Origin: Alistipes sp.
Lineage (GTDB): Bacteria > Bacteroidota > Bacteroidia > Bacteroidales > Rikenellaceae
Direction: 5' to 3'
Assembly (NCBI GenBank): GCA_017646785.1
Contig: JAGCLX010000015.1
Coordinates: 1 to 40,947 of the forward strand
DNA length: 40,947 nt
A model generated the notes under the pieces. It was given only the letters and a program-made list of their open reading frames with translations, had not been told where the DNA came from and searched no databases. A program made the position numbers and the translations under genes. Below, one piece after another: positions 4,506-39,738 of this stretch (the first letter of the stretch is position 1; each line of letters begins with the position of its first letter).

Positions 4506-7235
4506 ATGAAACGTTTTTTATCATTCCTATTAGTTGCTGTAGCATTTACAGCATGTGTACAGAGTGGTTTGGATGAAATCACGGCTACACAGCAGGCTCC
4601 CTCGGCGGAGACTCTCTATGTTGGTTTCGAGGGTGACGACACCCGCATCCAGCTCAACGAGGCTGGTAAGACTACTTGGACCAAGGGCGACCTTGTTTCG
4701 GTGTTCTACCGCTCGTATGACAACTTGAAGTATCAATTTGATGGCGAGACAGGTGACCGTAACGGTACGATATCTTGCATCGAGGGTAGCGCCGGTGCTC
4801 CAATTATGGAGAACATCATTACGGTCTATCCTTACAACTCTGCCTATCAGATAAACACTGCTGAGGAGAGTGTCTATGCTAAAATCCCCAATACGCAGTA
4901 CTATAGCGACGGTAGCTACGACCCCAATAGTAACATTATGGTGGCATGTAGCGCCGATAATAATTTCTACTTGCGTAACGTGAGTGGCTGGCTCAAGCTG
5001 TCGTTGACAGGTGATGGCGAGGTGTTGAACTATGTCACAGTGCGAGGCAATGGTGGCGAGCAGCTTGCTGGTAGCGTGATTGTCGATGCGGCTACTGCTG
5101 AGGTGACACTTGCACGCGAGGAGGACGAAAGTGAGGATGATTTTGAGGTTGGTGGCTCTATTGGCGATTACAAGCAGGGTGTCACCTTGAGATTTGACGA
5201 GAAGGTTGAGCTCTCTTCTTCGGCTATAGATTTGTATATTGCTGTTGTGCCCCAGACGTTTGCTGAGGGTATTACCGTTGATATCTATTGTGTTGGCTAT
5301 GACAAGATGAGCGTGAGCACCACCAGCGTGGTTGACATCGAGCGTAACCACATCGTACCCATGCGTAAGGTTAAGTTCGAGGGTGAGGAGATTGCAGATA
5401 ATGTTGTTTTGTACACAGCGACATCTAAACTCACTAAACATTGGTTGGCGTATCCAGAGGCTGTTGTGGAGCATACCTACGATGAGGTTACTGGTGTTGG
5501 TAGAATAACTTTTGTCGAGGGTGTAACTCCGTTTGATTATGACGGTTTTAACTACGCAACAGAGCTCACATCAGTAACACTGCCAAATAGCGTTACCTAC
5601 GTCCAATCTTATGCATTTACTGGCTGTACTAACTTGGCTCAATTTAGTGGTAAGTTTGCATCTGAGGATGGTAGGTCATTGGTTGTAGATGGTAGCATTG
5701 TAGCCTTTGCTCCTGCGGGACTCACGAAGTATGATATTCCTGAGTATGTAACCTCGATTGGCGATGAGGTATTCGTCAATTGCCAAAATTTGGAAGAGGT
5801 TACCATTCCTGCCGGTGTTGAGTGGATTGGAGCATATGCTTTTGTGGGCTGTGAGAGCCTACGCTCTGTCTATTGTAAGCCAATAACGCCTCCTGCAATC
5901 TCAGGTTACGCCTTTACTATAAACGATGGGTTCAGAATATATGTGCCAGTAGAGAGCACTGATGCTTATTTGCAGGCTTGGTCGCAGTATGATACTTTCC
6001 TCTGTGGCTACAACTTCGAGACTGGAGAGGTTGTAGGCTTGGCTACCCCATGGGTTTATATTGGTATGGGTACCTATCGCGATGACTTCTTGTCACCTTT
6101 GTATGGTGGTACTTCAGGTATTGAGATTGAGGTTGAGGTATTGCAGCATGAAACAGAGCTCAATCGTTACAGAATTAAGAATCCTTTCTCTGTGGAGAAC
6201 GTTGAATATATCCTCGGTGGTAGACCTGTAGATATGATTTTCACTGGAGGTAGTTACATTGAGTTTGTTGTTGAGGGCAGTGAGGTTTACATCCCTTCAA
6301 GCCCATGTGGCTTCAAGCTTGATGTAGGTACAGGTGACGGTCCATTGGATTTTTACCTTGCTTCAGTATATGCTGATGAGACAACTCCTATTTACGGTGA
6401 GTTCTCTGAGGGTGTATTCTGGTTCACACAGCCACAGTCTATTATGTGGCACATTCCTGATGGCCGTGGCAACTACGCTAACCAGGCAGGTCTCTTTGCT
6501 GTGGCGCTCCCAGGCTACGAGATTAAGGACTACACTATGAGTGCAACCTACATCGGTGAGGTTGAAGCGGATGGACAATGCTGTGCTGGTATTGAATTCA
6601 CTGTAAGCCCTGATATTGATTCATTTAAGCTTGCGGTTCTTCCTGGCAATATTACAGAGTTTGCTGATGTCGCCGAGGCTATCGTTGCAGGTAGCACAGA
6701 GTTCGATATTTATGACGCAGATGCTTCACCCACCTCTTCACAGCTCTCTTGGGCGTTTTATTTGTCTGAGGCGGGTGTCTACACTGTGGTTGCCGTTCCT
6801 TATGATGATGGCAAGGCTAAGGTTGGGTATGCCATCGCTCACTCCTTCTACTTCGCTGCTGGAGAAGAGGATGTACCCGAGATAGATGTTACTGTTATGG
6901 TGGACTCGGTTGTTAATATCACTGGGAATGAGTCTTATGAGGAAAATTACCCATCAAATCAGTACTTTGCAGTTTATATTCAGGCCAATGCAGATGAGGT
7001 GAGATCTCTAAAGATCTATATGGATTATCTTGATAATAATGTAAATTCGGGATATCCTGATGAATATTTCGTCGAAAATTATGGTTCCGATGAGACAGAT
7101 ATGCTGCATAATAATGGCTACTTTCTCGGGGCTTATGATACAAATCCAGGAGCTGCAATTGTAGTGTTGGTAGGTGTTGAGACCATCTATGGTAAGACGC
7201 AGTACTACCGTGCTGAGTACACATTGCCTTATTAA
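4506..7235 (+). CDS. Lipoprotein: fimbrillin-like module plus BspA-type leucine-rich repeats
   Basis: This is a 909-residue predicted outer-membrane or surface lipoprotein with lipobox FTAC (Cys17). Residues 30-290 form an Mfa/fimbrillin-like beta domain: DDTRI at 45-49, TWTKGD, a VYPYN segment, then WLKLSLTG and a closing VPQTF...RNHIVPM block. About residues 335-500 are BspA-like (LRR_5) repeats, recognisable from LTSVTLPNSVTYVQSYAFTG and LEEVTIPAGVEWIGAYAFVG. The C-terminal ~400 residues look like several beta-sandwich domains with YRIKNPF and VYTVVAVPYDDG motifs seen in other Bacteroidetes surface lipoproteins. The next gene starts 54 bases later, shares the N-terminal module, and no terminator intervenes, so the two are probably cotranscribed. 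BspA repeats commonly mediate adhesion; a binding role here is inferred. Confidence 0.85.
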   Translation: MKRFLSFLLVAVAFTACVQSGLDEITATQQAPSAETLYVGFEGDDTRIQLNEAGKTTWTKGDLVSVFYRSYDNLKYQFDGETGDRNGTISCIEGSAGAPIMENIITVYPYNSAYQINTAEESVYAKIPNTQYYSDGSYDPNSNIMVACSADNNFYLRNVSGWLKLSLTGDGEVLNYVTVRGNGGEQLAGSVIVDAATAEVTLAREEDESEDDFEVGGSIGDYKQGVTLRFDEKVELSSSAIDLYIAVVPQTFAEGITVDIYCVGYDKMSVSTTSVVDIERNHIVPMRKVKFEGEEIADNVVLYTATSKLTKHWLAYPEAVVEHTYDEVTGVGRITFVEGVTPFDYDGFNYATELTSVTLPNSVTYVQSYAFTGCTNLAQFSGKFASEDGRSLVVDGSIVAFAPAGLTKYDIPEYVTSIGDEVFVNCQNLEEVTIPAGVEWIGAYAFVGCESLRSVYCKPITPPAISGYAFTINDGFRIYVPVESTDAYLQAWSQYDTFLCGYNFETGEVVGLATPWVYIGMGTYRDDFLSPLYGGTSGIEIEVEVLQHETELNRYRIKNPFSVENVEYILGGRPVDMIFTGGSYIEFVVEGSEVYIPSSPCGFKLDVGTGDGPLDFYLASVYADETTPIYGEFSEGVFWFTQPQSIMWHIPDGRGNYANQAGLFAVALPGYEIKDYTMSATYIGEVEADGQCCAGIEFTVSPDIDSFKLAVLPGNITEFADVAEAIVAGSTEFDIYDADASPTSSQLSWAFYLSEAGVYTVVAVPYDDGKAKVGYAIAHSFYFAAGEEDVPEIDVTVMVDSVVNITGNESYEENYPSNQYFAVYIQANADEVRSLKIYMDYLDNNVNSGYPDEYFVENYGSDETDMLHNNGYFLGAYDTNPGAAIVVLVGVETIYGKTQYYRAEYTLPY

Positions 7236-7289: not shown

Positions 7290-9698
7290 ATGAAAAGATA
7301 TATATTACTCATATTGGCAGCTGTGGCAGTTACAGCGTGTGTCGAGAGTAACATCAACGAATTGCAGGCCAACCGTGGTAATGGCAAGGCTGTAGAGACC
7401 ATAACCGTGGGATTTGAGAATGACGAAACACGTATCGCTGTATACTCGGGTAAGACCTGCTGGCAGGGCGGTGACATTACCACTGTGTTCCCACGCACAG
7501 CGGATAACCAGATGTGGAAATTCATGGGCGAGTTTGGTGATAGAACTGGTAATTTGCAGTACTATTCGGGAGAGACTGGCCCACAGGTGATGGATAACAT
7601 CGTTGTGGTATATCCCTATAATAATTTGACAACACTTGACGTAGAAAAGCAAACCGTACAAACTCTTTTCTATAACGATACCAGTAACGTTGAAGATGCT
7701 TTTAGTGGTTGCTTCATGGTGGCAAGTGGCGATGATGACAACTTTACGCTCAAGAATGTAACCGGCTGGCTTAAGTTCTCGCTAACGGGTGATGGTCAGC
7801 GCCTCAGCCACGTCATTCTTCGTGGTAATAATGGCGAGCAGATTGCTGGTAACATCGAGATTGATGTTAATAGCGCCGAGGCATGGTTCGTAGAGGGCGA
7901 GATGAGCCCATACGAAGAGTATGGTGACGGTGCATACACCGGCTATGGTTACTATAGTGATACCACTGTTAGCGACCGTGTTGCAACACTCTCTTCAACC
8001 CCCATCGAGGTGCACTTCTCGCTTATCCCCCAGACATTCACAAAGGGTATAACCATTGAGGTATATTGCGAGGGATATGAGCCATTTGTTGTCAGCACCT
8101 CGGATGCTGTGACAATTAAGCGTAACCACATTCAGCCTATGGACGCAGTTGAGTTTGATGCCCCTGTAGGTGAGGAGCAGCTACTCGTTCTGCTTAATGC
8201 GATGAAGCACTCATTGTTACAATCGTCTGCAAATGGTTATGAGCATACCGACTTCGGATACCATGCTATTGGCGTTTACAACGACCATGCGTGCAAGCTT
8301 ATTGCTTGTAATGGTTGGATGTTTGGTTACCCAGATACATATAATCGCTTCCAATCTGCTTCGTATGGAAGGGGTTATGGCCCAGATGCTGGATTGGCAG
8401 CGCAAGTATGGCAGTTGTACTACAGAGCGATAAATAAGTGCAACTTTATTATCGGCTTGGCTGCAGACAATGAGTCTTTAGCAGTATTGCGTGGCCTTGC
8501 AAAGAGCTATCGCGCTATGCTATATCTCGACCTCGCTCGCATGTATGAGTGTCTGCCAGCTAATACCGATAACAGCCCCGACTATGAGAGTGGACAGATG
8601 GCTGTGGCAGGACTTACCGTGCCTATCGTGGATGAGAATACAACAGAAGAGCAGGCGATGAACAACCCACGTGCTACTCGTGAGGAGATGTTTAAGTTCA
8701 TCTTTGAGGATTTGGCTGACGCCGAGAGCTCTTTGGCTGCATATGCGCCTACAGCAGGTGAGTTGTCATTGCCCGTCGTTTACGGCCTTTACGCTCGTGC
8801 ATACCACTGGTTGGGTGGCTTCGAGGATGGCTTGAATGGTGAGCTTCCTGAGGGCGATGTAGCTTACACTTTGGCTGCTGAGTATGCTCGCAAGGCTATC
8901 AACTCATTCGGCGGATCTGTAATGTATGAGTATGAGTGGACCGACCCATACGTCGGCTTCACCACCATGGCATCATCTTGGATGTGGGGCTTGATTCAGA
9001 CAAATGAAACAATGATCAACAACCTCTTCCAGTTCACAGCGCACATGTCGCCTGAGGCAGCTTATGGTTATGGCCCATTTGTAATGCCCGGTGTTGCATC
9101 TGCTACATACGAGCGCCTCGCGGATACCGACTTCCGTAAGAAGGTTATCAAGGGCCCCGAGACCTCTTACGAGGAGTTCGCGCCATACACAACAATTGAT
9201 GAGTCCGAGTTTTATTATAACTTTGAATCCTTTGTAAACTTCAAGTTCCGTCCTGCGAATGGAGAGCGTAATGATTATGCGTTAGCATGTGCTGTTACAC
9301 TTCCTTTGATGCGTTGCGAGGAGATGTACTTCATAGAGATGGAGGCTATAGCTCACGCGCAGGGTGAGGCCGCAGCTAAGGCGAAACTCGAGGAGTTCAT
9401 GGCTTACCGCGACGCCAACTACGTATGTCCCGAAACAGACATCGTCGAGGAGATTATCTTCCAGAAGGGCGTTGAGTTCTGGGGTGAGGGTATATTGATG
9501 TACGATATGAAGCGCCTCGATATGGGTGTAGACTCAGCATACTCGAGCTACAACTACTACGAATATGCGCGTTTCTGCACTGAGGGACGACTCCCATGGT
9601 GGACATATTGCATCCCCATAAGTGCAATGAACACCAATATGGCTCTTATAAACAACCCCGATCCTTCACAAAGCTTGAACCCAATCATGAACGAATAA
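7290..9698 (+). CDS. Chimeric lipoprotein: fimbrillin-like module fused to a SusD-like domain
   Basis: This is an 802-residue lipoprotein with lipobox VTAC (Cys17). Residues 30-290 are a paralogue of the N-terminal module of the preceding gene, with DETRI at 46-50, CWQGGD, VYPYNN, GWLKFSLTG and RNHIQPM in the same order and spacing. From about residue 293 to the end it reads as RagB/SusD: AAQVWQLYYRAINKCNFII, LRGLAKSYRAMLYLDLARMY, a PRATREEMFKFIFEDLADAE helix, and the C-terminal EEIIFQKGVEFWGEGI block followed by DMKRLDMG. SusD proteins normally start directly with their helical core after the lipid Cys and pair with a SusC transporter. Neither holds here: the core is displaced by a fimbrillin module and no SusC is adjacent. 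A surface glycan- or ligand-binding role is inferred from the SusD part. Confidence 0.85.
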   Translation: MKRYILLILAAVAVTACVESNINELQANRGNGKAVETITVGFENDETRIAVYSGKTCWQGGDITTVFPRTADNQMWKFMGEFGDRTGNLQYYSGETGPQVMDNIVVVYPYNNLTTLDVEKQTVQTLFYNDTSNVEDAFSGCFMVASGDDDNFTLKNVTGWLKFSLTGDGQRLSHVILRGNNGEQIAGNIEIDVNSAEAWFVEGEMSPYEEYGDGAYTGYGYYSDTTVSDRVATLSSTPIEVHFSLIPQTFTKGITIEVYCEGYEPFVVSTSDAVTIKRNHIQPMDAVEFDAPVGEEQLLVLLNAMKHSLLQSSANGYEHTDFGYHAIGVYNDHACKLIACNGWMFGYPDTYNRFQSASYGRGYGPDAGLAAQVWQLYYRAINKCNFIIGLAADNESLAVLRGLAKSYRAMLYLDLARMYECLPANTDNSPDYESGQMAVAGLTVPIVDENTTEEQAMNNPRATREEMFKFIFEDLADAESSLAAYAPTAGELSLPVVYGLYARAYHWLGGFEDGLNGELPEGDVAYTLAAEYARKAINSFGGSVMYEYEWTDPYVGFTTMASSWMWGLIQTNETMINNLFQFTAHMSPEAAYGYGPFVMPGVASATYERLADTDFRKKVIKGPETSYEEFAPYTTIDESEFYYNFESFVNFKFRPANGERNDYALACAVTLPLMRCEEMYFIEMEAIAHAQGEAAAKAKLEEFMAYRDANYVCPETDIVEEIIFQKGVEFWGEGILMYDMKRLDMGVDSAYSSYNYYEYARFCTEGRLPWWTYCIPISAMNTNMALINNPDPSQSLNPIMNE

Positions 9699-9717
9699 GT
9701 TATCATAGCTTAAAAAG

Positions 9718-9746
9718 CAAAGCAGAGGTCACCCCTCTGCTTTTTT
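9718..9746 (+). terminator. Rho-independent terminator after the SusD-like gene
   Basis: AAGCAGAGG (9720-9728) pairs with CCTCTGCTT (9734-9742) over a 5-base loop, followed by T-rich sequence to 9746. Confidence 0.85.
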
Positions 9747-9769
9747 GCAACACCCATATTATATATAGT

Positions 9770-10846
9770 ATGACACACGATAGACTTATGACGATAGCCT
9801 CGCAGTTTGAGATCGAGGGCGAGATTGTATCCATAGAGATGCTTGGAAAGGGCTTTATAAACGACACCTTCGTGGTGAAAACTGCAGGTTCAGCGCCAGA
9901 CTACATACTGCAGCGTAAGAATCACCGGGTGTTCCCCGATGTCCCAGGCATGATGGCAAACATAAAGGCTGTGACCGAGCATATCAAGTCGAAGGTGGCA
10001 GATCCGATGCGAGAGACACTCACGGTAGTGCCAGCAAAGGATGGACGACTATATGTTCAGGATGGCGAGAACTACTGGGCGGTGTGTCTATATATCCCCA
10101 ATGCGGTGACATACGAGCGTGCCGACTCGCCCGAGTTGGCATATCAGGGCGGTGTGGGCATAGGGCGCTTTCAGGCGTTGCTCGCCGACTTCAAGCAGCC
10201 ACTAAACGAGACCATAAAGGGCTTTCACAATATACGCTGGCGCTTCCAGCAGTGGGATGCTACGCTCGCTGCCGATCCCGTGGGTCGCGTGAGTGAGGTC
10301 GCAGAGGAGATAGGCTGGGTGGAGAAGCGCAGAGAGGAGATGCTCGCGTTCTGGTCGAAGGTAGAGTCGGGGGAGATACCCACGCGCGTAACCCACAACG
10401 ACACCAAGATAAGTAATATCCTCTTCGATGGGGCTACGGGCGGCGTGTTGTGCGCTATAGACCTCGACACGGTGATGAGCTCCACATCGCTTAATGACTT
10501 TGGTGACGCCATTCGCTCATACACAAACACGGGTGCGGAGGATGATAGGTGCTTAGATAGGGTAGGCATGGACATAGAGATGTTTCGCGCCTATGCCGAG
10601 GGTTATCTCTCGGAGCAGCGCGCCACGATGACCGAGAGCGAGAAGGAGTGGCTGGCATTCTCGGTACGATATATAACCTTTGAGCAGGTGTTGCGCTTCC
10701 TGATGGACTATATAGATGGTGATAGGTATTACAAGACGTCGTATGCAGAGCATAACCTCGTGCGTACGCGTGCGCAGTATAGGCTGTTGCAGAGCATGGA
10801 GCAGCAGTATGATGAGATGTGTGCCATTGTAAAGAGCTTTGTGTAA
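9770..10846 (+). CDS. APH-fold phosphotransferase, similar to N-acetylhexosamine 1-kinases
   Basis: This 358-residue cytoplasmic kinase has the aminoglycoside/choline-kinase fold. A glycine loop (LGKGFINDTFVVK) lies near the N-terminus. The Brenner motif THNDTKISN gives catalytic Asp211 with Asn216, and IDLDT (Asp231, Asp233) supplies the metal-binding acid. The layout and sequence feel resemble NahK-type N-acetylhexosamine 1-kinases, which phosphorylate GlcNAc/GalNAc at C1, but the substrate is not provable from sequence and an antibiotic-resistance role is unlikely. I chose ATG 9770 because the longer frame from 9596 overlaps both the end of the SusD-like gene and its terminator. Placement beside surface-binding lipoproteins could reflect use of host amino sugars; this is inference. 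Confidence 0.85.
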   Translation: MTHDRLMTIASQFEIEGEIVSIEMLGKGFINDTFVVKTAGSAPDYILQRKNHRVFPDVPGMMANIKAVTEHIKSKVADPMRETLTVVPAKDGRLYVQDGENYWAVCLYIPNAVTYERADSPELAYQGGVGIGRFQALLADFKQPLNETIKGFHNIRWRFQQWDATLAADPVGRVSEVAEEIGWVEKRREEMLAFWSKVESGEIPTRVTHNDTKISNILFDGATGGVLCAIDLDTVMSSTSLNDFGDAIRSYTNTGAEDDRCLDRVGMDIEMFRAYAEGYLSEQRATMTESEKEWLAFSVRYITFEQVLRFLMDYIDGDRYYKTSYAEHNLVRTRAQYRLLQSMEQQYDEMCAIVKSFV

Positions 10847-11743: not shown

Positions 11744-12334
11744 ATGGCTATGAAACTTAAAATCTTCATCCCTCTGCTCCTTGGCATGCTACTGAGCTTC
11801 AACAGCGCCAAGGCACAGGATGTCGCCATCAAGACAAACCTCCTCTACGATGCTACGGCAACTGTAAACCTCGGTGTGGAGGTGGGGCTTGCTCCAAAGT
11901 GGACTCTCGACATCTCTGGTAATCTCAATGCCTGGAACATAGACGAGGATACAAAATGGCGTCATTGGCTTGCTCAGCCCGAGGCGCGTTACTGGTTCTG
12001 CGACCGCTTCTCTCGCCACTTTATCGGCTTCCACGCTTTGGGTGGTCAGTATAACTTCGGCGGCATAGAGAACAACGTTCGCTTTCTTGGCTCGGACTTC
12101 AGCAAGCTTACCGATAACCGCTATCAGGGTTGGACTGTAGGTGCTGGTGTGGCATACGGCTACGCCTTCATCCTGGGTAAGCACTGGAACTTGGAGCTTG
12201 AGCTAGGCGTTGGTTATGCCTACTTGGACTACGACATCTTCAGCTGTTCGGGCTGTGGTCGTAACATCGGCTCGGGCAACCACCACTACTTCGGCCCTAC
12301 AAAGGCGGCTATTAACTTAGTTTATCTATTTTAA
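11744..12334 (+). CDS. DUF3575-family outer-membrane protein of fimbrial loci
   Basis: This 196-residue secreted protein has a signal peptide ending AKA-Q (cleavage after about residue 24). The mature part alternates short beta strands rich in aromatic residues (IKTNLLYDA, EARYWFCDRF, YQGWTVGAGVAYGYAF, NLELELGVGYAYLDYD) and ends in a terminal Phe, as outer-membrane beta-barrels do. The IKTNLLYDATATVNLGVE opening is typical of DUF3575, a family that accompanies DUF3868 and fimbrillin genes in Bacteroides and relatives. It is the first gene of the operon and its stop lies 3 bases before the next start. A role in fimbria assembly or anchoring is inferred from context; no biochemical function is known to me. 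Confidence 0.85.
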   Translation: MAMKLKIFIPLLLGMLLSFNSAKAQDVAIKTNLLYDATATVNLGVEVGLAPKWTLDISGNLNAWNIDEDTKWRHWLAQPEARYWFCDRFSRHFIGFHALGGQYNFGGIENNVRFLGSDFSKLTDNRYQGWTVGAGVAYGYAFILGKHWNLELELGVGYAYLDYDIFSCSGCGRNIGSGNHHYFGPTKAAINLVYLF

Positions 12335-12337
12335 GAA

Positions 12338-13783
12338 ATGACTACTACGATGAGAAGATTTATAATAATGATGACCGCCGTGCTTGCCGGTGTTGGTGTT
12401 GCCAATGCCCAGACATTGAACGGCGTGAACGTAGAGAGCTACACCATGGAGCGCGCTGGCAATTTCGTGGTTGTAGATATGGATATAGACATCAGCCAGC
12501 TTGATGTTAAAGGCAGCGAGGCTGTGGTGCTCACACCCCACATCGTGCGCGACACGTTGTCGGTGGCACTTAAGTCAGTAGGTGTATATGGCCGCAACAG
12601 AGATTTCTATTATCAGCGTAATGAGAGCTTGTCGCCCACGGCGGATAGCGACCTTGAGTACCGCAATAGCAAGGCCCCCGATATGGTTACATATCACGCG
12701 GTAGTCCCCTTTGAGGAGTGGATGGATGGCTGTCAGTTGGTGTTTGAGCGTACGGATTGCGGTTGCAACAACTCTACGCTTGCTAAGGAGGGTAGTGTAC
12801 TTGTGGATCGCTTCCCATTGGAGCCATACAAGCCCATGTTGCTATACATCCAGCCACAGGTGGAGCGCGTAAAGACTCGCGAGCTTAGTGGTACAGCATT
12901 TATCGACTTCCCAGTTAGCAAGATGGATATTCAGCCCTCATATCGCAATAACGAGGCTGAGATTGCTAAAATTACAAACTCAATAGATGTCGTAAAGTCT
13001 GACGATGATGCTACGATTACATCTATCACCATCAAGGGATATGCATCGCCCGAGAGCTCGTATGCAAATAATACGCGCTTGGCAGAGGGTCGTACAGCGT
13101 CACTTAAGGGTTATATCGAGTCGCTCTACAACTTCGACAGCGACCTTATCACTACGGCATACGAGCCTGAGGACTGGGCTGGTTTAGAGCGATATGTTGA
13201 GGCGTCGAGCCTTAAGAATCGTGACAACATTCTCGCCATAATTCGCTCGGAGAGTGACCCCGACAATAAGGAGTGGGTGCTCAAGAGCAGCTACCCTGAG
13301 GAGTATGCCTACCTCTTGGCAAACTGCTATCCTGCGCTCCGCCACTCGGACTACACAATCCAGTATACTCTTCGCCACTATAGCGACCCCGTGGAGATTG
13401 AACGCATCATGAATACAGAGCCTCAGAAGCTCTCGTTGGATGAGTTCTACATCCTCGCACAGACCTATGAGTCGGGTAGTGTAGAGCTTGATGAGTTGTG
13501 GGAGGTGGCTGTGAGAATGTACCCCAACGACGAGATTGCAAACTTCAACGCTGCAAACTCGGCAATGGATAAGGGTGACTTCGAGCGTGCAAAGCGCTAC
13601 TTGGATAAGGCCGGTGACCGCCCCGAGGTGTACTACTCACTTGGTTGCATAGAGATACTCAAGGAGCAGTATGAGGCGTCGCTCGACTACCTATACAAGG
13701 CTCGTGCGGCAGGTGTTGAGGAGGCTGCTCCAGTAATCGAGGCTGCGGAGAGCCACTGGACAGTTAAGCGTAACAAAAAGTAA
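12338..13783 (+). CDS. DUF3868 protein with OmpA-like and TPR-like regions
   Basis: This 481-residue exported protein has a signal peptide ending ANA-Q near residue 24. The N-terminal ~190 residues match the DUF3868 type of beta domain seen in fimbrial operons. Next comes an OmpA-like peptidoglycan-binding segment (TITSITIKGYASPESSYANNTRLAEGRTASL, described here by its ends; about residues 228-258). The C-terminal part is helical with TPR-like turns (ANFNAANSAMDKGDFERAKR, VYYSLGCIEILKEQYEASL). This suggests a periplasmic or outer-membrane assembly factor tethered to the cell wall. The start could also be the internal Met at residue 5; both give a good signal peptide. It is translationally close-coupled to the DUF3575 gene. 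Confidence 0.85.
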   Translation: MTTTMRRFIIMMTAVLAGVGVANAQTLNGVNVESYTMERAGNFVVVDMDIDISQLDVKGSEAVVLTPHIVRDTLSVALKSVGVYGRNRDFYYQRNESLSPTADSDLEYRNSKAPDMVTYHAVVPFEEWMDGCQLVFERTDCGCNNSTLAKEGSVLVDRFPLEPYKPMLLYIQPQVERVKTRELSGTAFIDFPVSKMDIQPSYRNNEAEIAKITNSIDVVKSDDDATITSITIKGYASPESSYANNTRLAEGRTASLKGYIESLYNFDSDLITTAYEPEDWAGLERYVEASSLKNRDNILAIIRSESDPDNKEWVLKSSYPEEYAYLLANCYPALRHSDYTIQYTLRHYSDPVEIERIMNTEPQKLSLDEFYILAQTYESGSVELDELWEVAVRMYPNDEIANFNAANSAMDKGDFERAKRYLDKAGDRPEVYYSLGCIEILKEQYEASLDYLYKARAAGVEEAAPVIEAAESHWTVKRNKK

Positions 13784-13831
13784 TGAAGAATAATACAACA
13801 AATAAAATTAATAATCTAAAAACTTAAAACT

Positions 13832-15352
13832 ATGAAAATGAAGTATTTCTTTATGGCGGTTGCAGCTCTTGCTGCGGTGGCTTGTTCGGAGAATGAGGAG
13901 GGCTCGCAGAGTAATCCACAGGCAGGTATGAGCGCGGATAAGGGTTATATCGCACTTAACCTCAAGTCGTCAGACGACGTTACACGTGCTGAGGATGGCA
14001 AATACGAGGATGGTACTGCGGATGAGCAGGCTGTAACATCGGCAACATTCTACTTCTTTGATGCTGCGGGCAACGCCTTCAACATCAACGCTAATGGCAA
14101 CTACTACTATATGTCGGTTGCTGACAATGGTGGCACTTCATCACCCAATATCGAGTCTATGACAGATCCCGTGTTGGTGGTTGAGAAGTATAAGGGTCAG
14201 TTCCCCGCAAAGGTTGTCGCTGTGGTTAACTACCAGGGTACATCAAGCCTCTCGCTCAACGACCTTAAGAACAACCTTAAGACCGCGGGCCACACTGATG
14301 GTAAGAACTTCATCATGTCAAACTCTGTATACGCAAGCGCAGCAGGCTTGGAGATTGACGCTACAGAGCTTAGCATCGACAACTTCCAGACAAGCGCAGC
14401 GGATGCTCTTGATAACCCCGTTACAATCTATGTTGAGCGCGTGAATGCTAAGTTGAATGTTACGGCTGGTAATCAGGCTTTCGATACAGGCGTTAAGGTT
14501 GGTGACTCAGCGGTATACGCAAAGGTTTACGGTTGGACAATCATCGGCAACAAGACAGAGTCTTATTTCATCAAGAGCATCGACCCCGCATGGAGCAGCT
14601 CAGAGTTGGGCTTTGTGTGGAATGACTCGGAGTTCTTCCGCTCATACTGGGCATCAAAGTGCGTAGCTGATACCGAGGATGGCAAGTTCTCTTACAACGA
14701 CCTCACAAACAACGACGCTACCGTGGTATATCTCGGCGAGCAGGTTGGTACACGTGCAACATACGTTGTGGCGGCACAGTTGCAGGATGTAGATGGTAAG
14801 GCTATCGAGATTGCTCAGTGGTATGGCACTAACTACGTTGGCGAGCAGGCGCTCTTGACAGCAGTAGCACCTACGCTTAAGAACAAGCTCATGCACTTTG
14901 ACGGTGTGGATACCTACACATCTATCGACGACACACAGCTCAAGTGCGTAGCAGGTGTGTCGGGAGCTGAGAGCTACGAGGTGGTGTTCCAGCTTGCTGA
15001 TGGCGCAGAGACAACTAATTGGTTCTCATTCGACGGCTCTACATATACCGCAGTTGATGCAAACTACGTATTGGCAGCTGTTGAGCCAGCGAAGGTTTGG
15101 AAGAGCGGTATGGCATACTACTATGCAGATGTTAAGCACCTGGGTTCTGAGGGCTCTGTTGGTGAGTATGGCGTTATCCGTAACCACAGCTACAAGGTTG
15201 CTATCAACGGTGTTAAGGGTTGGGGTACTCCAGTATACGACCCAGCTGTAGAGGTCGTTCCCGTTAAGCCCACCGATAAGGAGACCTACATCTCGGCTGA
15301 GATTAATGTCCTCTCATGGCGTGTTGTATCTCGCGAGGTGACGCTTGAGTAA
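13832..15352 (+). CDS. Major fimbrial subunit, Mfa1/FimA-type fimbrillin
   Basis: This is the 506-residue precursor of a type V pilus shaft subunit. It has a lipoprotein signal with lipobox AVAC (Cys18) and an Arg-Ala processing candidate, DVTRAED, at Arg52. The C-terminal domain is of the Fimbrillin_C/Mfa1 kind: YYYADVKHLG, GVIRNHSYKVAINGVKGWGT, then a final strand INVLSWRVVSREVTLE. In Porphyromonas gingivalis such precursors are exported as lipoproteins, cleaved after an N-terminal Arg by gingipains, and polymerised by donor-strand exchange; applying that here is inference. It is followed 20 bases later by a strong terminator, which would make this the most abundant subunit of the operon. 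Confidence 0.92.
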   Translation: MKMKYFFMAVAALAAVACSENEEGSQSNPQAGMSADKGYIALNLKSSDDVTRAEDGKYEDGTADEQAVTSATFYFFDAAGNAFNINANGNYYYMSVADNGGTSSPNIESMTDPVLVVEKYKGQFPAKVVAVVNYQGTSSLSLNDLKNNLKTAGHTDGKNFIMSNSVYASAAGLEIDATELSIDNFQTSAADALDNPVTIYVERVNAKLNVTAGNQAFDTGVKVGDSAVYAKVYGWTIIGNKTESYFIKSIDPAWSSSELGFVWNDSEFFRSYWASKCVADTEDGKFSYNDLTNNDATVVYLGEQVGTRATYVVAAQLQDVDGKAIEIAQWYGTNYVGEQALLTAVAPTLKNKLMHFDGVDTYTSIDDTQLKCVAGVSGAESYEVVFQLADGAETTNWFSFDGSTYTAVDANYVLAAVEPAKVWKSGMAYYYADVKHLGSEGSVGEYGVIRNHSYKVAINGVKGWGTPVYDPAVEVVPVKPTDKETYISAEINVLSWRVVSREVTLE

Positions 15353-15372
15353 ATTCTATAGATAACTATTTC

Positions 15373-15411
15373 GGAGTCCGCTTGGCGGATGAGTTGAGCG
15401 GACTCCTTTTT
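15373..15411 (+). terminator. Internal terminator after the major fimbrillin gene
   Basis: GGAGTCCGCT (15373-15382) pairs with AGCGGACTCC (15397-15406) in a perfect 10-bp stem, followed by a T-run. It lies inside the fimbrial gene series, and so should reduce expression of the anchor and tip genes relative to the shaft subunit. Confidence 0.85.
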
Positions 15412-15619
15412 AATAAAAGAGAGTGTATAACGATTAGAGGCTTCTGCGAAGCGCACTATGATATCGGTGCAAAGAGAGATATCGCCACGAAGAGCCCAGC
15501 GCAAAGAGATGGCTTTTCAACCGGAAAACGACAATAATAGCCTCGTATATAGAGGATTAGATATATGGGCCAAGGCCCGATGGATGAGAAAATAAGTAAA
15601 ACGTAAAAAGTATAAAACA
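15412..15619 (+). promoter_or_regulatory. Hairpin-rich spacer between fimbrillin and anchor genes
   Basis: The 208-base spacer contains hairpins GCTTC/GAAGC (15440-15452), CCTC/GAGG (15541-15555) and GGGCC/GGCCC (15567-15578), just before the anchor gene. I did not find a convincing TAnnTTTG promoter. It could be a leader or processing region for the downstream subunits. Confidence 0.4.
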
Positions 15620-16651
15620 ATGAAGACCCAAGCTAAATTTGGTAAGTGGGGATTGATGCTGGCCACTTTGTTCTTTGCACTATCGACCAGCTCGTGCATG
15701 GAAGGTTTCATCTATGAGGGTGAAGGCGACTGCGATACATACTACAACATTAAGTTTAAGTATGACTACAACATGAAGTTCGCTGATGCCTTTGCCAGCG
15801 AGGTGAACTCCGTGTCACTCTTCGTATTTGATGTCAGCGACACCCTTGTTGAGAGTATTACGGTGAATGATACAGAGCAGTTGCACGCGGCAGACTTCTA
15901 CATCCCCTTAAAGCTTGAGAGTGGTAAGTATGAGCTTGTTGCGTGGGCGGGACTCATGAACGAGGAGTCTTTCGACCTCTTGGCTAATATCGAGAAGGGT
16001 AAGACAAAGCGCGAGGAGTTGCAGGTGGCGCTTAAGTGCACCAACGACAATCGCGTAACGGCAGACTTGCAACCACTATATCATGGCGCTATGACCCTCG
16101 ACTACACGTCTGAACCTGGCACCTACACCGAGACAATGTCGTTGGTAAAGGATACCAACGTGGTGCGCATCCTCTTGCAGCAGATGTCTGACGGCATGGT
16201 TGCCGACAAGTTCAGATATGAGATCACGGCAGACAACGGCCTCCTCGACTGGAACAACGATGTTATCGCGAATGGCACACTCACATACGAGCCTTGGAGT
16301 GTAACTACAGGATCGGCAGATGTAGCCCCCGACTATGGCACCAGCAGCACACGCGCAGACCAGGTGTCGGTAGCTGTTGCAGAGTTCACAATCAACCGCA
16401 TGATTGATGGTGAGAGCCCCATTCTCACTGTGTACAACATCGAGGAGTCGAAGCCCGTATTCTCAATCCCCGTAGCGGAGTATGCGCTCTTGGTTAAGGG
16501 TTACTACAACCGCGACATGTCGAACCAGGAGTACCTCGACCGTCAGGATGAGTACAACATGACATTCTTCCTTGATGAGGATGGTAGCTGGCTCTCTGCA
16601 TCAATTATTGTTAACTCGTGGAGAGTGGTTCTAAATAACGATATTCTCTAA
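15620..16651 (+). CDS. FimB/Mfa2-family fimbrial anchor subunit
   Basis: This 343-residue lipoprotein has lipobox STSSC (Cys26). The start of the mature region (YYNIKFKYDYNMKFADAFASEVN) and the SLFVFD strand are the hallmarks of FimB/Mfa2 proteins, which in P. gingivalis stay lipid-anchored in the outer membrane and terminate fimbria growth. Unlike the neighbouring subunits, it has no Thr-Arg-Ala processing motif near residue 50, which fits a retained anchor. The last strand (IIVNSWRVVLNNDIL) resembles the C-terminal strand of the major fimbrillin. It is followed 22 bases later by the next subunit gene. Confidence 0.9.
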   Translation: MKTQAKFGKWGLMLATLFFALSTSSCMEGFIYEGEGDCDTYYNIKFKYDYNMKFADAFASEVNSVSLFVFDVSDTLVESITVNDTEQLHAADFYIPLKLESGKYELVAWAGLMNEESFDLLANIEKGKTKREELQVALKCTNDNRVTADLQPLYHGAMTLDYTSEPGTYTETMSLVKDTNVVRILLQQMSDGMVADKFRYEITADNGLLDWNNDVIANGTLTYEPWSVTTGSADVAPDYGTSSTRADQVSVAVAEFTINRMIDGESPILTVYNIEESKPVFSIPVAEYALLVKGYYNRDMSNQEYLDRQDEYNMTFFLDEDGSWLSASIIVNSWRVVLNNDIL

Positions 16652-16673
16652 TTACCCAACACAAAGTAGAGCT

Positions 16674-18269
16674 ATGAGAGAGAGCATTAAACATATGATG
16701 ATCGCTATGGCGGGACTCGTGTTGGTGGCATGTAACTCTATCTACGAGTTTGGCGATTGCCCCTCGTTTGATGAGCCACACAGCGTGAGTTTCGTCCTCG
16801 CGATTGACCCTCCGGGTACTACGCGTGCCGCATGGGGGGATAGTGAGCCCAGTGATGAGATAGGAACAGGCTTCGAGAATAGAATACTTCCCGAGAGTTT
16901 GCGTGTAGAGATATATACGGCCGATAATAGCTATGTAGGTGAGGTGGAGGAGTTGGTATATTGGCCCATCTCCGAGGATGGCAACCGCTATCAGTTCCAG
17001 GGTAAGGTCCCCGTTGCGCTGTTGGATAGCGCTGCGAGCCTCCCCGTAGGCACTACGCCAAACTACAAATTCATGGTTTTCGCGAACTGCGACAGGGGCG
17101 ATAACGCCTCAATAACCTACGAGTTTGACGACCTCGACTTTACATCGGGTGCTATACCCATGTGGGGCGTTAAGCAGGCGGATATCACCAACTTGCTCAA
17201 CGACCGTGTGCAGCAGCTCGGTACAATATCGTTATTGCGCGCGGTGGCTAAGGTGGAGATTATCGTTGATGAGGCGCTTTCGGGTTGTACAATCAACGAG
17301 GCCTCGATCAACTACCACAACCGTCAGGGCTACGTGCTTCCAACGGGTTGGGATACAGCCGTGAGTACCACATCTCTTGACCGTGATGGTGTGTTCCGTG
17401 GCTACCGCTCAATTCACACGTTGCCACATTCGTTTGTTGAGGTAGAGGCGGGACGTAAGTTCGTCTTCTATCTTCCTGAGTACGACAACACCCTTTTTGC
17501 AGATTATGAGGCTAAGGTGTCGGTTAATGTGAACTACAACGCTACGCAGCTCAACTTCCCCGATGCACTGCAGTTCAAGAACTATGAGAACGGCAAGCCC
17601 ATGGGAGAGGCGGCAAACATCGTGCGTAACACCATCTACCGCTTCCGCATCACGCAGATTAACTCTGGAGGTTTGGTGCTTAACTATGAGGTGGCAGACT
17701 GGGAGCGTAGCGATAACTGGGAGTGGGTGCAGCACTTCGACTATCCCAACTACCACAACCCCGTGCTTCCCGATACGGCAACACGCGATGGCGACTCGTC
17801 TAACGACGTATACCCCGCGCAGCCCGAGATGTACTACACAGCGCCCAACGAGCGTGGTGCAATCGTGACCGAGGAGGGTGCCTTCTCATGCTGGTTCCAG
17901 ATGGTGAACCCCATTGGTCAGACATGGCTGCCAACGTTGCGCACAGCCTCTGATCGTTGCGACATCCGCGTGTATAAGGAGTTGGACTCTATGGTCAAGG
18001 AGTTGGTATACACAACTGAGAGCAGCGTTACAGATGCCTCGCTTAAGGATGGCTCTAAGTTGGTGGCATACGGCGGCTGGTACAACATCAAGGTGATACC
18101 TACCGACCCAGCCTACACTGGCGTGGCGCGCTTCGGTATTACTTACACACAGGACTGGATGGGTGCCGGTGCTCGTTATCTGCTTATCAACGGAGAGGTA
18201 GATCACATCATCTGGCCTAATAGCGGCTCAGAGCCACGAATTATCGACATCCAGCAGGTTTCTAATTAA
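16674..18269 (+). CDS. Fimbrial accessory (minor) subunit, Mfa/FimC-D-like
   Basis: This 531-residue lipoprotein precursor has lipobox LVAC (Cys20) and an Arg-Ala site, GTTRAAW, at Arg51. The first half has the paired beta-sandwich look of fimbrillins, with AVAKVEIIVD and NYHNRQGYVLP blocks. The core ends with NIVRNTIYRFRITQI and LNYEVADWE, the end-of-domain strand of minor fimbrial subunits. About 140 extra residues follow, Cys/Tyr/Trp-containing beta material that may be a distal functional domain. Position directly after the anchor gene matches accessory subunits in known mfa/fim operons. The individual role (adaptor versus tip) cannot be read from sequence. Confidence 0.8.
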   Translation: MRESIKHMMIAMAGLVLVACNSIYEFGDCPSFDEPHSVSFVLAIDPPGTTRAAWGDSEPSDEIGTGFENRILPESLRVEIYTADNSYVGEVEELVYWPISEDGNRYQFQGKVPVALLDSAASLPVGTTPNYKFMVFANCDRGDNASITYEFDDLDFTSGAIPMWGVKQADITNLLNDRVQQLGTISLLRAVAKVEIIVDEALSGCTINEASINYHNRQGYVLPTGWDTAVSTTSLDRDGVFRGYRSIHTLPHSFVEVEAGRKFVFYLPEYDNTLFADYEAKVSVNVNYNATQLNFPDALQFKNYENGKPMGEAANIVRNTIYRFRITQINSGGLVLNYEVADWERSDNWEWVQHFDYPNYHNPVLPDTATRDGDSSNDVYPAQPEMYYTAPNERGAIVTEEGAFSCWFQMVNPIGQTWLPTLRTASDRCDIRVYKELDSMVKELVYTTESSVTDASLKDGSKLVAYGGWYNIKVIPTDPAYTGVARFGITYTQDWMGAGARYLLINGEVDHIIWPNSGSEPRIIDIQQVSN

Positions 18270-18287
18270 TAATATAGTCAACGAACT

Positions 18288-20570
18288 ATGAAACGATATA
18301 TGAAATACGCAATGGCAATTTTGCTCGCCTCGTTTGCTGTGGCTTGCCACACCGACATTGATGAGGGCTTTTCGAGCAATGCTAAGCAGCGCGCCATTGT
18401 GCTAAATGTAACGGGCGGAGAGCTTGGTGTTGATACCCGCGCCGAGGATATGGCAGATGTGGCCTACGAGAGCGCTATCTCACACCTCGATATCATGATA
18501 TTCAACGATGCGGCAGATGATGCAGATAAGAGCCTATTCTATTATGAGCGTGCTACTACAGCTTCGTCAAGCGGTCAGGTACGCCTCGGTGTCGACATCG
18601 ACGACATCGTTGTGGGTGCTCAGTACTGGGTATATGTTGTAGCTAACAGCACACACGCCTCTTCTGTATACGCTAACATTGGCAATGTGGAGTCACTCTT
18701 TGACCTTACGGAGGAGTGCCACAATGTGCACCTCACAGCCACAGGTCTTCAAAATACCAACACCCACTTCTTGATGGATGGCGTAGGCTATATGGGTGGT
18801 GCCGAGCCAACTGTGGCTGGCGCTGTAACTATTGCCGAGCAGGAGATTGCCGATGTGGTTGAGCTTAGCGTTAAGCTACGCCGTGCTGCTGCAAAGGTGG
18901 TTGTTAAGCTCATAGCTTCGGAGAATATGGAGTTCTCGAACGAGATTACAGGCTCTACCCCAGGCTACTACGTGCGCAACACCCCCTATGAGACCCGTGT
19001 GATGAACGATGGCGTTGTGCGCCAGAGCCAGAAGCTTGAGACTACACATGAGTCTATCAGTGACTACTATAAGTGGGTACGTAATAGCGAGGGTGATATC
19101 ACTGCGGTGGAGATTACGCTCTATGTGTTGAGCCATACATGGCAGACCAATGACAGCTTTAGCAACGCCACAAACTTGCTTGTCGATGTGCCAGCATACT
19201 ACAGCACCGAGGTGGATGGCGTGACAACAAAGGTCGCTCACCCAAACAACTACTACCAGGTGCCCATGAGCCGCGACTTTACGTTTGAGCGCAACCACTA
19301 CTACGAGGTTACTGCAAACGTTAATGCGCCAGGTGCGGAGGACTTCTCTGAGCCCGTTGTAATCGACGAGCTTAAGTATAGCGTTCGCCCATGGACCGAG
19401 CGCTCGATTAATGTGGGTGGCGAGAATGGCCCCGAGTACCTCAAGGTAAACCTCGACGAGCTTAAGATGTACAATACCGATGTAGACTCTTCATCGTTGC
19501 TATTCTCCTCGTCGTCACCCGTAACCATCGAGGTTGTGGACAGCTACTACATCGACAAGTTCGGCATCAAGCAGGATATAAGCGCAGCGCCCTACAACAT
19601 CTACGGCACAACCGAGGATGACTCTATCGCAGGTAGTATCACAGTGCATAGCGACAACCCAACAAACAACACCGTGCGTTACTTCACCCTCATCATCACA
19701 AACGAGACGGGACAGCAGGAGCGAGTGGTTGTGGAGCAGTACCCCTTGGTGTATGTAGTCAATATCCTTGGCCACTACTCATATCGCGATGACTTTAAGT
19801 CGGGTAACAACGCCCCCACAACCATCTACAATCAGGGTTCGGCATACTCGAGCATATCACTTGGCAGCTGGAACAATACCACCAAGCGCTGGTCGTATAA
19901 CTATAGTGCCAACTCGTCGGGTTTCTGGCGCTCGAAGGTTGTTGTGGAGACCTATCCTGAGGACCATAGAACGGCATCATATCGCGGTCGCTCGGATGTC
20001 GATTACTACTACTATGGTAGCTCGTTTGGTAGCTCAAAGGTGGAGTACAGAACAAGCAATGCGGAGGATCCCAGCAACGCACGTATGTACCATGTGCGCA
20101 TCACGGCGACATCGGGTGAGTATAACCTCGGCGTGCCTCGCCTAACAACAAGCGACAATGTAGACTTCGCATATACCGACCCTGGTCAGGACAACGCAAG
20201 CCTCGTATCGCCATCGTTTATGATTGCATCGCGCCTCGGCTTCGTGAACTCGGGAGGCCTCTCATCGGCAGATGACCAGGAGATGCGACAGTCGGTATCG
20301 CGTGACCACTGCGCCTACTACGTCGAGGTTGCCGACAACGGCACGGTATACGACGATTGGCGCTTGCCCACAGCCTCGGAGTTGCGCATCATCATGGAGT
20401 TGCAGGGTACCTCGTCACAGAGTGCCGACGCCATCGACTATCTGCTCAACGCCGACTACTACTACTCGGCTTCGGGACCTGTGTTCAATCCAAAGAACGA
20501 TGGTAATGTGTCGGAGAACAGAGCCGATGACGACTCGTGGGCTATACGTTGCATCCGCGACGCATATTAA
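18288..20570 (+). CDS. Fimbrial tip/accessory subunit with lectin-like C-terminal domain
   Basis: This 760-residue lipoprotein precursor has lipobox AVAC (Cys20) and VDTRAED with Arg51. Residues ~30-370 are fimbrillin-like (LRRAAAKVVVKLIAS; FERNHYYEVTANV as the closing strand; SVRPWTERSI). A middle part contains Ser-rich beta repeats and a strand ending RVVVEQYP. The last ~90 residues (YYVEVADNG, YDDWRLPTASELRIIMELQ, ending WAIRCIRDAY) match the DUF1566/FISUMP type of C-type-lectin-like fold, which often sits at the end of Bacteroidetes surface proteins. This makes it a good adhesin candidate. It lies 18 bases downstream of the previous subunit and 38 bases upstream of the next. Confidence 0.8.
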   Translation: MKRYMKYAMAILLASFAVACHTDIDEGFSSNAKQRAIVLNVTGGELGVDTRAEDMADVAYESAISHLDIMIFNDAADDADKSLFYYERATTASSSGQVRLGVDIDDIVVGAQYWVYVVANSTHASSVYANIGNVESLFDLTEECHNVHLTATGLQNTNTHFLMDGVGYMGGAEPTVAGAVTIAEQEIADVVELSVKLRRAAAKVVVKLIASENMEFSNEITGSTPGYYVRNTPYETRVMNDGVVRQSQKLETTHESISDYYKWVRNSEGDITAVEITLYVLSHTWQTNDSFSNATNLLVDVPAYYSTEVDGVTTKVAHPNNYYQVPMSRDFTFERNHYYEVTANVNAPGAEDFSEPVVIDELKYSVRPWTERSINVGGENGPEYLKVNLDELKMYNTDVDSSSLLFSSSSPVTIEVVDSYYIDKFGIKQDISAAPYNIYGTTEDDSIAGSITVHSDNPTNNTVRYFTLIITNETGQQERVVVEQYPLVYVVNILGHYSYRDDFKSGNNAPTTIYNQGSAYSSISLGSWNNTTKRWSYNYSANSSGFWRSKVVVETYPEDHRTASYRGRSDVDYYYYGSSFGSSKVEYRTSNAEDPSNARMYHVRITATSGEYNLGVPRLTTSDNVDFAYTDPGQDNASLVSPSFMIASRLGFVNSGGLSSADDQEMRQSVSRDHCAYYVEVADNGTVYDDWRLPTASELRIIMELQGTSSQSADAIDYLLNADYYYSASGPVFNPKNDGNVSENRADDDSWAIRCIRDAY

Positions 20571-20608
20571 TAGATAGAGAGATTTTTGACTGATAACGTT
20601 ACAACAAT

Positions 20609-23600
20609 ATGACTAAGAGATTTTCACATATAGTGGCCGCCATTGTCGCAACTTTTGGCGTTGCATGCCAAGCGGATATAGATGTTGCGCCTCCAGTTGT
20701 AGACAATGCTCCCGAGGGCTGGACAACGGTGGAGTTTACGGCTAACACCCCTTTGATGACAGAGGTGACGGTGCGTGGTGTAGACCCCGATGGTATCGAC
20801 GTGCAGAGCCTTATGCTCTTCTGCTTCAATGACTACGGCCTATACATCGCTCATGTCGATGCGGAGCTCAACGCCGCAATTGAGACCCCATCACTCTCGG
20901 GTACATACAAGGCGACAATTCCTGAGGATACGCGCATCATCCACTTCGTGGGCAACCAGAATAGCAACCTCTTCGAGTCGGAGATGTTTGTAAACCGCAC
21001 CGAGGATGAGATTCAGGATGATATGGTTGGCGCATCGGGAATGATTATCTATTGGAGCCGTTTTGTCTTCAGCAACGATGGCGGCTTCCAGCAGCAGCTC
21101 GCCAATGCCAATAATGGTGAGGGCATCAAGCTTATTCGCAACCAGGCGAAGATATCTATCGACAATCCCACGGGAAATGGATTTATTGACGTAACTGGCT
21201 GGGTAGCAACAAATGTGCATGCCTATGGTACAACGGCGCCCTACCATCCCGAGAAGCGCTTCCCAACGGATGGAACAGCCTTTGAGTGGCCTGGCGATGA
21301 CTTTGTGACCCTCCCTGGCAATCGAGCGAAGCTCTCGGATATCACCGATGTTACGTCAAAGCCCGAGGAGTATGTTTTCGAGCATGAGAATGGTTTTTAC
21401 GACCCCGTAAGCATCATTATCAAGGGCCGCCCTGCAGGTGGCAGCGAGGAGTTGTACTATCGCGTGATGATTATTGATGAGGATGGCGAGCAGCTGATGA
21501 TTCGCCGTAATCACCACTACAAACTCAACATTACGGGTAAGCTAACATACGGCTCTAAGACCTTTGATGAGGCGCTTAGTGCACCTGCAACGAACAACAT
21601 CTGGGTTGCTGTCGACGATTGGGTGACAGAGGTTTCGTACGATGGTATCACTCTTGCCGTAGATCAGACAAGCGTGGTGCTTGGTGAGGATAAGGCGGGC
21701 TCGCTACTCGAGCTTGGTTATTCAATAACTTCAACAGCTTCGACACTCACAGCAGAGGATATGGCCGAGGTGACATGGATGGATGGTAACACTGTGGCTG
21801 CGCACAACTTCAACCACAGCTTCGTCCCCAATGGCAGTACTGGCGAGGGTAAAATAACCATTCAGCTACTTGAGATGGGTGATAGCCCCATGTTGGAGGG
21901 TACGCTTGTGGTGAAGAAGGGTCGCTTGCAGCGCACCATTCGTGTTGTGCTCATCAAGACGCAGTCGTTCACGCCTGTGTGGGCAGCGACGCAGATATAT
22001 GGTGGTGAGATTGGTGAGCTTGCGACATTCAAGTTTACCATCCCCGAGGACTTCCCATTCTTCCCATTCAATGTATATGTGTCGGTTAACAGCCTTGATG
22101 TCCGCACGGAGACCACAGGTCGTGTGCTCCCCGTGGTGCGTAAGGGTGATGATGGCTGGTATGGAGTGGATAATGACCTCGGATATAAGTATGTATACAC
22201 TGTTACCGAGCCAGGCGTGCAGCGCCTATACTTCCACAGCATCCTTGCACATGAGCAGGGTGGTAAGGACTACATCACGCTTGAGGCTGAGTACTTCAAC
22301 ACCGTGAAGAAGGAGTTTCAGTATGCAGAGCATCAGAATGTTATTAGCGTTGCCGACCTAAGCACATATCGCGTGTCGGGCATTGAGGATGAGCCTATCT
22401 ACTACCGCCTTGTGCCTCGCAAGATAAATGCCCCTGTGCGCTTTGATGTCTTGCTTCAGGATACCGCTACTGGTGCTGCAAGAAATGCAGGAGAGAATGA
22501 TGAGTTCTTTATCTACAGCCGCACTCTCGACTCGCTCTACAACCAGGCAGATCGCGACATGTTTGGCTTGCCAGATAATTGGAACTGGGATTGCCGCTTT
22601 TATACGGTTGATGACGCCTACTGGCAGCAGAGTACCAATGGCCGTATGCTTATGTTCAAGCCCGTGGATATAGATAAGACGGGTGAGGATAAGGGTAAGT
22701 ACTCTATCTATCTCAAGACCAACACATCGCGTAGCGACGATATGGTGCGTATCGCCTCTAACCAGTCGGAGAGCTACTCTGCAATTCCTGGTATGAGTAA
22801 TGTCAACTATGCGGGTAACACCTACCGCTCGTTCATCTTCGAGTTGTCGACCTACAACCCATTCCGCTTTGCGGCGCAGATAGCTATAAACGGTGGTGCG
22901 CCCGTGGGTACTTGGAACACGGCTGCTGATAAGCTCGGTGAGGCTGACCCTGTTGATAATCTTGTGTGGACATACAACCCCAACCAGAAGGTAGACATCA
23001 GCTTTGACATAACCAGCTTTGAGGGTAGCGATGGCCGCTCGGCAGATCCCTTCGGCACAGCCTTCGAGGTATACATCGACGCCCCCATGCTCAAAATTGA
23101 TGAGAGCCGCCTTACGCCCGTTATGGCAGATAAGCTGAAGCCTCATCCAACAATCCCTGGTCGCTTTGTCTACACCGTAGACGCCTCACGCGAGGTGGAG
23201 CGCATGAGTGGCAATGGTGGCTCTGTGATGATTGTAGACCCCTCTGCAGCATCGCAAGAGGGTGAGCGTAAGACACTTCCGTTTGTCACTAACGGCATTA
23301 CCACAATGGGTGATATTGTGATTAGCTCACAGCGCGAGGTGTGCGAGTTCTTTGAGAAGCGCTTTAAGGTTACCAACAGCCTTATCGAGGGTAGTATTAA
23401 GTATGAGGATGGTGCGGCTCAGCATGATATTGCGCACGGTGAGTTCGTGAGCTTCGCAGTTGAGCGTACAGGTGTGCGTATCGGCTCGATGAACATCACA
23501 GCTGATGGCCGTTTCACTCTCAACCTGCGCTCGGAGTACTCCTTCACATGGGAGGATGACGCAGTGCACCTCGCCTATATCCGCAATGGCAAGGTCTACG

Positions 23601-31102: not shown

Positions 31103-31140
31103 ACTATTATAATTCAATTTACTTAAACTAAAAAATGCTT

Positions 31141-33837: not shown

Positions 33838-33851
33838 AAGCTGCAACTACT

Positions 33852-39691: not shown

Positions 39692-39738
39692 AGATTAATA
39701 GATAATTTATAGTTAAACTAATTAAAACCTTTAAAAAC

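Follow-up and report, generated by a model that had tools for sequence, protein, structure and literature searches.

The window analysed here, a 40,947-nucleotide stretch of an Alistipes sp. contig, encodes two adjacent surface lipoproteins that probably form a transporter-free pair derived from a SusC-SusD-'SusE-position' locus, serving capture or attachment and not acting as the lid of a channel (Table 1). SusD is usually regarded as part of SusC, and a search of titles and abstract starts, with most subscription papers outside it, returned no report of a SusC-free or N-terminally fused SusD. Both the architecture of the fused SusD and its repeated origin are well supported.

Table 1 Features of the pair in the window
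Feature	Position	Strand	E value
Partner lipoprotein, 909 aa: same N-module (1-296), BspA-type LRR_5 (~330-504), C-terminal SusE/SGBP-position domain	4506..7235	+	
Partner residues 505-909, 50% identical to residues 137-544 of L005:10821-13106	6018..7235	+	2e-130
Fusion lipoprotein, 802 aa: signal peptide, lipobox (Cys17), fimbrillin-fold N-module, SusD domain	7290..9698	+	
Fimbrillin-fold N-module, residues ~19-290; 41% identity to the upstream neighbour's module	7344..8159	+	
SusD domain, residues 300-802; at most 62% identity to ordinary SusDs; without the canonical lipid-anchor/hinge stretch	8187..9698	+	

Architecture of the fused SusD and its partner

The initial annotation had placed a SusD domain behind a fimbrillin-like domain in a single gene, and both halves proved genuine. 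The SusD half has the SusD/RagB fold, is complete to its C-terminal end and has a family match, with SusD-like_3 scoring above its Pfam cut-off and SusD_RagB below its own. The N-terminal module (N-module) had been expected to match PF13149, but no Pfam family matched it at E values up to 10; the fimbrillin fold was found by comparison of its predicted structure, which resembles the Bacteroides fimbrial or cell adhesion proteins 3t2l, 3ufi and 3sy6 and shows more remote similarity to FimA and Mfa proteins. This structure is a model of the module alone, used because a full-length model, built on a mixed alignment, rendered the N-module poorly. Foldseek matches were given a second look, and absence from either list was not used.

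The join between the two halves is also real. Among the 120 matches listed of 2,386 proteins, six (P0001-P0006, 98 to 43% identical) have the same domain order, and the remaining 114 are SusDs of 505-561 amino acids that have no module and are 56-62% identical over the SusD half. P0003 ends early, at 666 amino acids. P0002 appears mosaic: its N-module and first SusD part are nearly identical to the window, and from about residue 543 it is nearer one of six canonical SusDs than the window in five of six segments, which may reflect gene conversion or a chimeric contig. A plasmid search returned six records, all of which match SusD in part and over less than 80% of the query, and the viral contigs searched contained no confirmed relative.

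The gene that ends 54 bp upstream of the fusion gene, unnoticed in the initial annotation, carries the same module and a SusE-position domain, and the unit is thus a pair. The C-terminal part of this partner is homologous to the gene directly downstream of SusD (the SusE/SGBP position) in a canonical SusCD locus, L005, and is 26.6-47.7% identical to the gene at the same position in 18 further loci that contain this gene complete or almost complete; several loci are cut inside that gene and give short matches only. The L005 gene itself has no Pfam match and no PDB sequence match. Beyond the SusD fusions, none of the 117 N-module proteins fetched (of 379 found) matches the SusE-position domain at 1e-4. 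The partner's combination of domains suggests that both surface lipoproteins of the parent locus were remounted and SusC omitted.

In its layout, the fusion protein is like the SusE/F-type SGBPs with DUF1735 or BACON spacers treated in PMC11216935: a surface lipoprotein with an N-terminal beta-sandwich spacer and then a binding domain. BACON itself serves as the spacer in two of the fused SusDs described below (genomes G010 and G131). The fusion protein differs from those SGBPs in carrying a SusD domain and in having no transporter gene at its locus. It also shares its N-module with the BspA-type LRR_5 lipoproteins of Alistipes genomes, of which the tandem neighbour is one, but has SusD where they have the LRR region.

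A query with the module alone found 379 proteins. Of the 120 matches listed, 108 have LRR_5 after the module; the others are SusD fusions (P0001-P0003), one protein with Cthe_2159 and proteins with none of these. A single Alistipes genome, G003, contains the module 21 times (fragments included). The module is therefore a common N-terminus of surface proteins and not a pilus part as such, and the 'pilin-like stalk' of the initial annotation does not stand as a pilus-specific element.

FimA/Mfa-type fimbrillins polymerise by donor-strand exchange; unlike them, the fusion protein has no Pfam fimbrillin match, and its chain continues past the module into SusD. An Mfa-type fimbrial operon lies downstream (11744-23677, + strand) and encodes DUF3575 and DUF3868 proteins, an Mfa1-family shaft, an Mfa2 anchor, a tip-like protein, a FimD tip adhesin and a 1,022-aa protein without a family. 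The fold of the N-module, together with the start of this operon only about 2 kb away, could be taken to mean that the fusion protein is a tip or accessory adhesin that joins the pilus through its module. We consider this quite improbable, as the operon has a tip adhesin of its own, it is separated from the fusion gene by an APH-family gene and some 900 bp in which no gene is convincing, and LRR_5 is what most often follows the module. In addition, none of the seven fimbrial proteins of the window matches the stretches around the other four fused loci at 1e-5, and in G008 and G100, the nearest relatives by flanking genes, a single gene separates APH from DapD and a fimbrial operon is absent from that interval.

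SusC and the lid hinge at canonical and fused loci

SusD acts as a lid in the pedal-bin model (PMC7618045), and PMC11817032 gives C20 of RagB and the 17 amino acids after it as the anchor and hinge of the lid. Canonical SusDs have a short conserved stretch after the lipidated cysteine that leads straight into the core, which the fusion protein of the window does not have. A motif for this stretch, composed after viewing the canonical sequences, is present in 53 of 60 intact canonical rows versus 0 of 11 fused ones. Aligned with the canonical SusD of the same genome, the BACON form of G131 can be matched from within helix 1, and about 27 residues after the cysteine are gone. Judged from these alignments, the stretch replaced in the fused SusDs is the lipid-anchor/hinge segment. 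Compared with the SusD/RagB lids of SusCD and RagAB transporters, the fusion protein has the same fold, but its anchor and hinge are replaced by a module of about 270 amino acids, and it stands in a window without SusC, whereas the ordinary SusDs related to it, where read with their flanks, are paired with one.

The absence of SusC reported in the initial annotation was borne out. None was found in the window at 1e-10, and the fusion gene has no adjacent SusC/RagA gene. A TonB-dependent receptor of 900 amino acids lies 21.4 kb off and is not a SusC (90.5 of 368.25 bits for TIGR04056); with the 684-aa protein that follows it, which has no family match, it occupies 31135-35906 (+ strand). Nor is there a cognate SusC at the matching site in G008 and G100, where ProC (94% identity) and the APH-family gene (83-84%) are immediate neighbours.

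A genome scan gave 20 loci, from Alistipes sp. or Rikenellaceae bacterium and all from metagenome-assembled genomes (MAGs). When 180 genomes from the genus to which G007 belongs were searched, 60 of them yielded 66 places at E values up to 1e-90. The flanks of all 66 places were searched with the SusC of locus L014, itself a TIGR04056 match of 770.8 bits. SusC lay directly upstream at 61 of 61 canonical places versus none of five fused loci (the window, G007:C75, G016:C31, G010:C26 and G131:C61), a contrast that holds within readable flanks and represents few independent events, three by tree. The 66th place, G100:C59, is truncated at the end of its contig and does not enter the count; G100:C61, which encodes a SusC and then the first 204 amino acids of a SusD, is probably its other part.

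Among the fused loci outside the window, G007:C75 (835 aa) and G016:C31 (823 aa) encode a SusD with the N-module, and G010:C26 (633 aa) and G131:C61 (649 aa) a SusD with BACON. The stretches read contained no SusC, with about 11.8, 16, 16 and 9 kb readable on the SusC side of G007:C75, G016:C31, G010:C26 and G131:C61, respectively. The database fusions P0001-P0006 and P0239-P0246 are sequences without flanks. SusCs above the family cut-off number four in G007, four in G016, five in G010 and three in G131, and each adjoins a SusD, so that no vacant SusC is visible in these four drafts; three are MAGs and G131 is a fragmented assembly, and partial SusCs below the cut-off are possible in all of them. 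Separately, G007:C2 encodes an unpaired SusD of another subfamily (L098:4708-6438, - strand), with no SusC in the 13 kb read and with a long N/D/P-rich linker after the lipidated cysteine that is neither N-module nor BACON. Loss of SusC is thus not tied to these two modules alone.

If the fused SusDs no longer closed a channel, a clear loss of SusC-facing conservation would be expected, but a comparison of conserved sites over the whole core of fused and canonical rows revealed none. The SusD core of the window keeps 59 of the 60 sites that are at least 97% conserved in canonical SusDs. At that level, a conserved site is broken in a mean of 2.3% of the 10 fused rows versus 1.4% of the 60 canonical rows; the corresponding values are 5.2 versus 4.0% at the 90% level and 7.6 versus 7.7% at the 80% level. 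The excess at the strict levels comes from one of the three fused clades described below, clade 2, which alone changes several of them (R417, G499, G522 and M674); at W770, both clade 2 and clade 3 differ. The retention fits a binding fold that has been kept, without clearly indicating release of the SusC face.

Near-complete retention of these sites also makes it possible that the fused SusD is an alternative lid, pairing in trans with a SusC encoded elsewhere and using its long N-module as a flexible tether. The similar rates of site loss in fused and canonical rows would suit such a lid, as would P0002, which is nearer canonical SusDs from about residue 543 and could therefore reflect exchange with a transport-linked SusD. 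We nevertheless think a trans-acting lid unlikely: the anchor/hinge motif is missing from all 11 fused proteins, every above-cut-off SusC in the four genomes already adjoins a SusD, and the SusE-type protein was remounted as well (in the window and G131), which a swapped lid would not need. With SusC absent from the fused loci and matching sites and each above-cut-off SusC already paired, a free binding protein, as the initial annotation proposed, is the better reading, and we favour SusC independence to a moderate degree; binding itself is presumed, and the 59 retained sites fit either a free protein or a lid.

Repeated origins of fused SusDs

Fused SusDs, headed by the fimbrillin-fold module or by BACON, fall into three separate clades in SusD-core trees of both 72 and 80 rows (79 distinct). 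On the 80-row tree the canonical/fused label changes three times, all forced by starred branches, although by the tree tool's own caveat three changes may be one gain and two losses. We infer that the canonical SusD is the ancestral state, since SusDs are as a rule paired and hinge-bearing. Clade 1 comprises the window and P0001-P0006. Clade 2 comprises G007 (identical to P0238), G016, G010 and P0239-P0246; its N-module forms branch first and its BACON forms are nested, and the start of the module is missing from P0240. Clade 3 consists of G131, which groups as sister to its own genome's canonical SusD.

The fusions of G007, G016 and G010 share their genomic location, next to a TrkA-like gene and another that starts MMPVKK, and at this site (L033, L080 and L081) three different N-termini precede the same SusD clade in three genomes. 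The start of the G016 fused gene (signal peptide and linker) is 67% identical over 63 amino acids to that of the BACON-LRR gene lying ahead of the fusion in G007, a trace expected of exchange between tandem lipoprotein genes. In a tree of N-modules, the window clade lies beside the module of its neighbour (99/93), a placement that we did not take as proof of the module donor, the program having warned of long branches meeting and of unsettled bootstrap values.

Between the fused genes of G016 and G007, dN/dS is 0.33 overall, 0.19 in the N-module and 0.39 in the SusD half, versus 0.14 between the canonical SusDs of the two genomes. To judge from this one fused pair, the fused genes are under constraint, though less than canonical SusDs. 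That weaker constraint on the SusD half, the mosaic appearance of P0002 and an in-frame stop in the second gene of the G131 pair are what one might see after a chance gene fusion without selected function or in an assembly chimera. The overall dN/dS, the absence of internal stops from the four genomic fused SusD genes and the recovery of 19 distinct fused sequences from several sources across the three clades make such an accident very improbable.

The pair also recurs outside the window: as in the window, the unit in G131 combines a SusD with a SusE-position protein and has no SusC. The G131 pair consists of the BACON-SusD gene and, after it, a BACON gene that is 62% identical over 664 amino acids to the gene after SusD in its own genome; the two BACON N-termini are 51% identical to each other. 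This second gene (L034:11084-13483, + strand) is interrupted in its BACON part by a single in-frame stop, which may mark a pseudogene or an assembly error. G007 is perhaps a further, weaker case: its candidate partner is separated from the BACON-LRR gene by about 7 kb, has a sub-threshold BACON match (14.5 of 25 bits) and is 50% identical to its canonical counterpart over 154-167 amino acids only. No SusE-type partner was found in the approximately 20 and 19 kb read in G016 and G010.

More broadly, we hold it to be an evenly balanced proposition that the surface half of a SusC-D-E import locus has been turned into a separate adhesion or capture system at least three times in Alistipes lineages. 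SusD (three times) and the SusE-type lipoprotein (in the window, G131 and perhaps G007) would have been duplicated, the anchor and SusD hinge swapped for a fimbrillin-fold or BACON stalk, and the channel discarded.

Proposed function and genomic setting

In the window, the pair would descend from both surface lipoproteins of a SusC-SusD-'SusE-position' locus, the native N-terminus of each having been exchanged for the fimbrillin-fold module that heads BspA-type LRR lipoproteins. In SusD, the part lost would be the lipid anchor and hinge, and SusC would not have been carried along. A lipidated cysteine would anchor both proteins in the outer membrane, with the SusD and SusE-type domains held off its surface. 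The pair's ligands would be of the same class as those of the parent locus, and SusC-independent surface capture or adhesion, in place of a lid function at a TonB-dependent channel, is its most likely role. A protein or peptide ligand is likely because the parent locus encodes S8 and C10 peptidases: L005 has two S8 subtilases and a C10 peptidase after the lipoproteins, and S8 and C10 peptidases also occur in L014 and L002. If this proposal is true, channel- and hinge-free SusDs that evolved repeatedly, with a SusE-position partner in two lineages, are natural separation-of-function variants, which would allow SusD binding alone and an adhesin role of SusD-family proteins to be tested. Counts of SusD genes can also overcount uptake loci.

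In the window, the gap between ProC and APH that is empty in G008 and G100 is filled by a pseudouridine synthase gene and the pair (flanking genes are named by their Pfam matches). The pseudouridine synthase and APH genes lie on different contigs in G008, G100 and G124, making it likely that the block was inserted between ProC and APH. The listed start of the APH-family reading frame (9596-10846, + strand) overlaps the end of the fusion gene; a start at ATG 9770, where the matches of relatives begin, is more likely. Farther downstream, the window encodes two tandem Omp28-family proteins (38606-40854, + strand).
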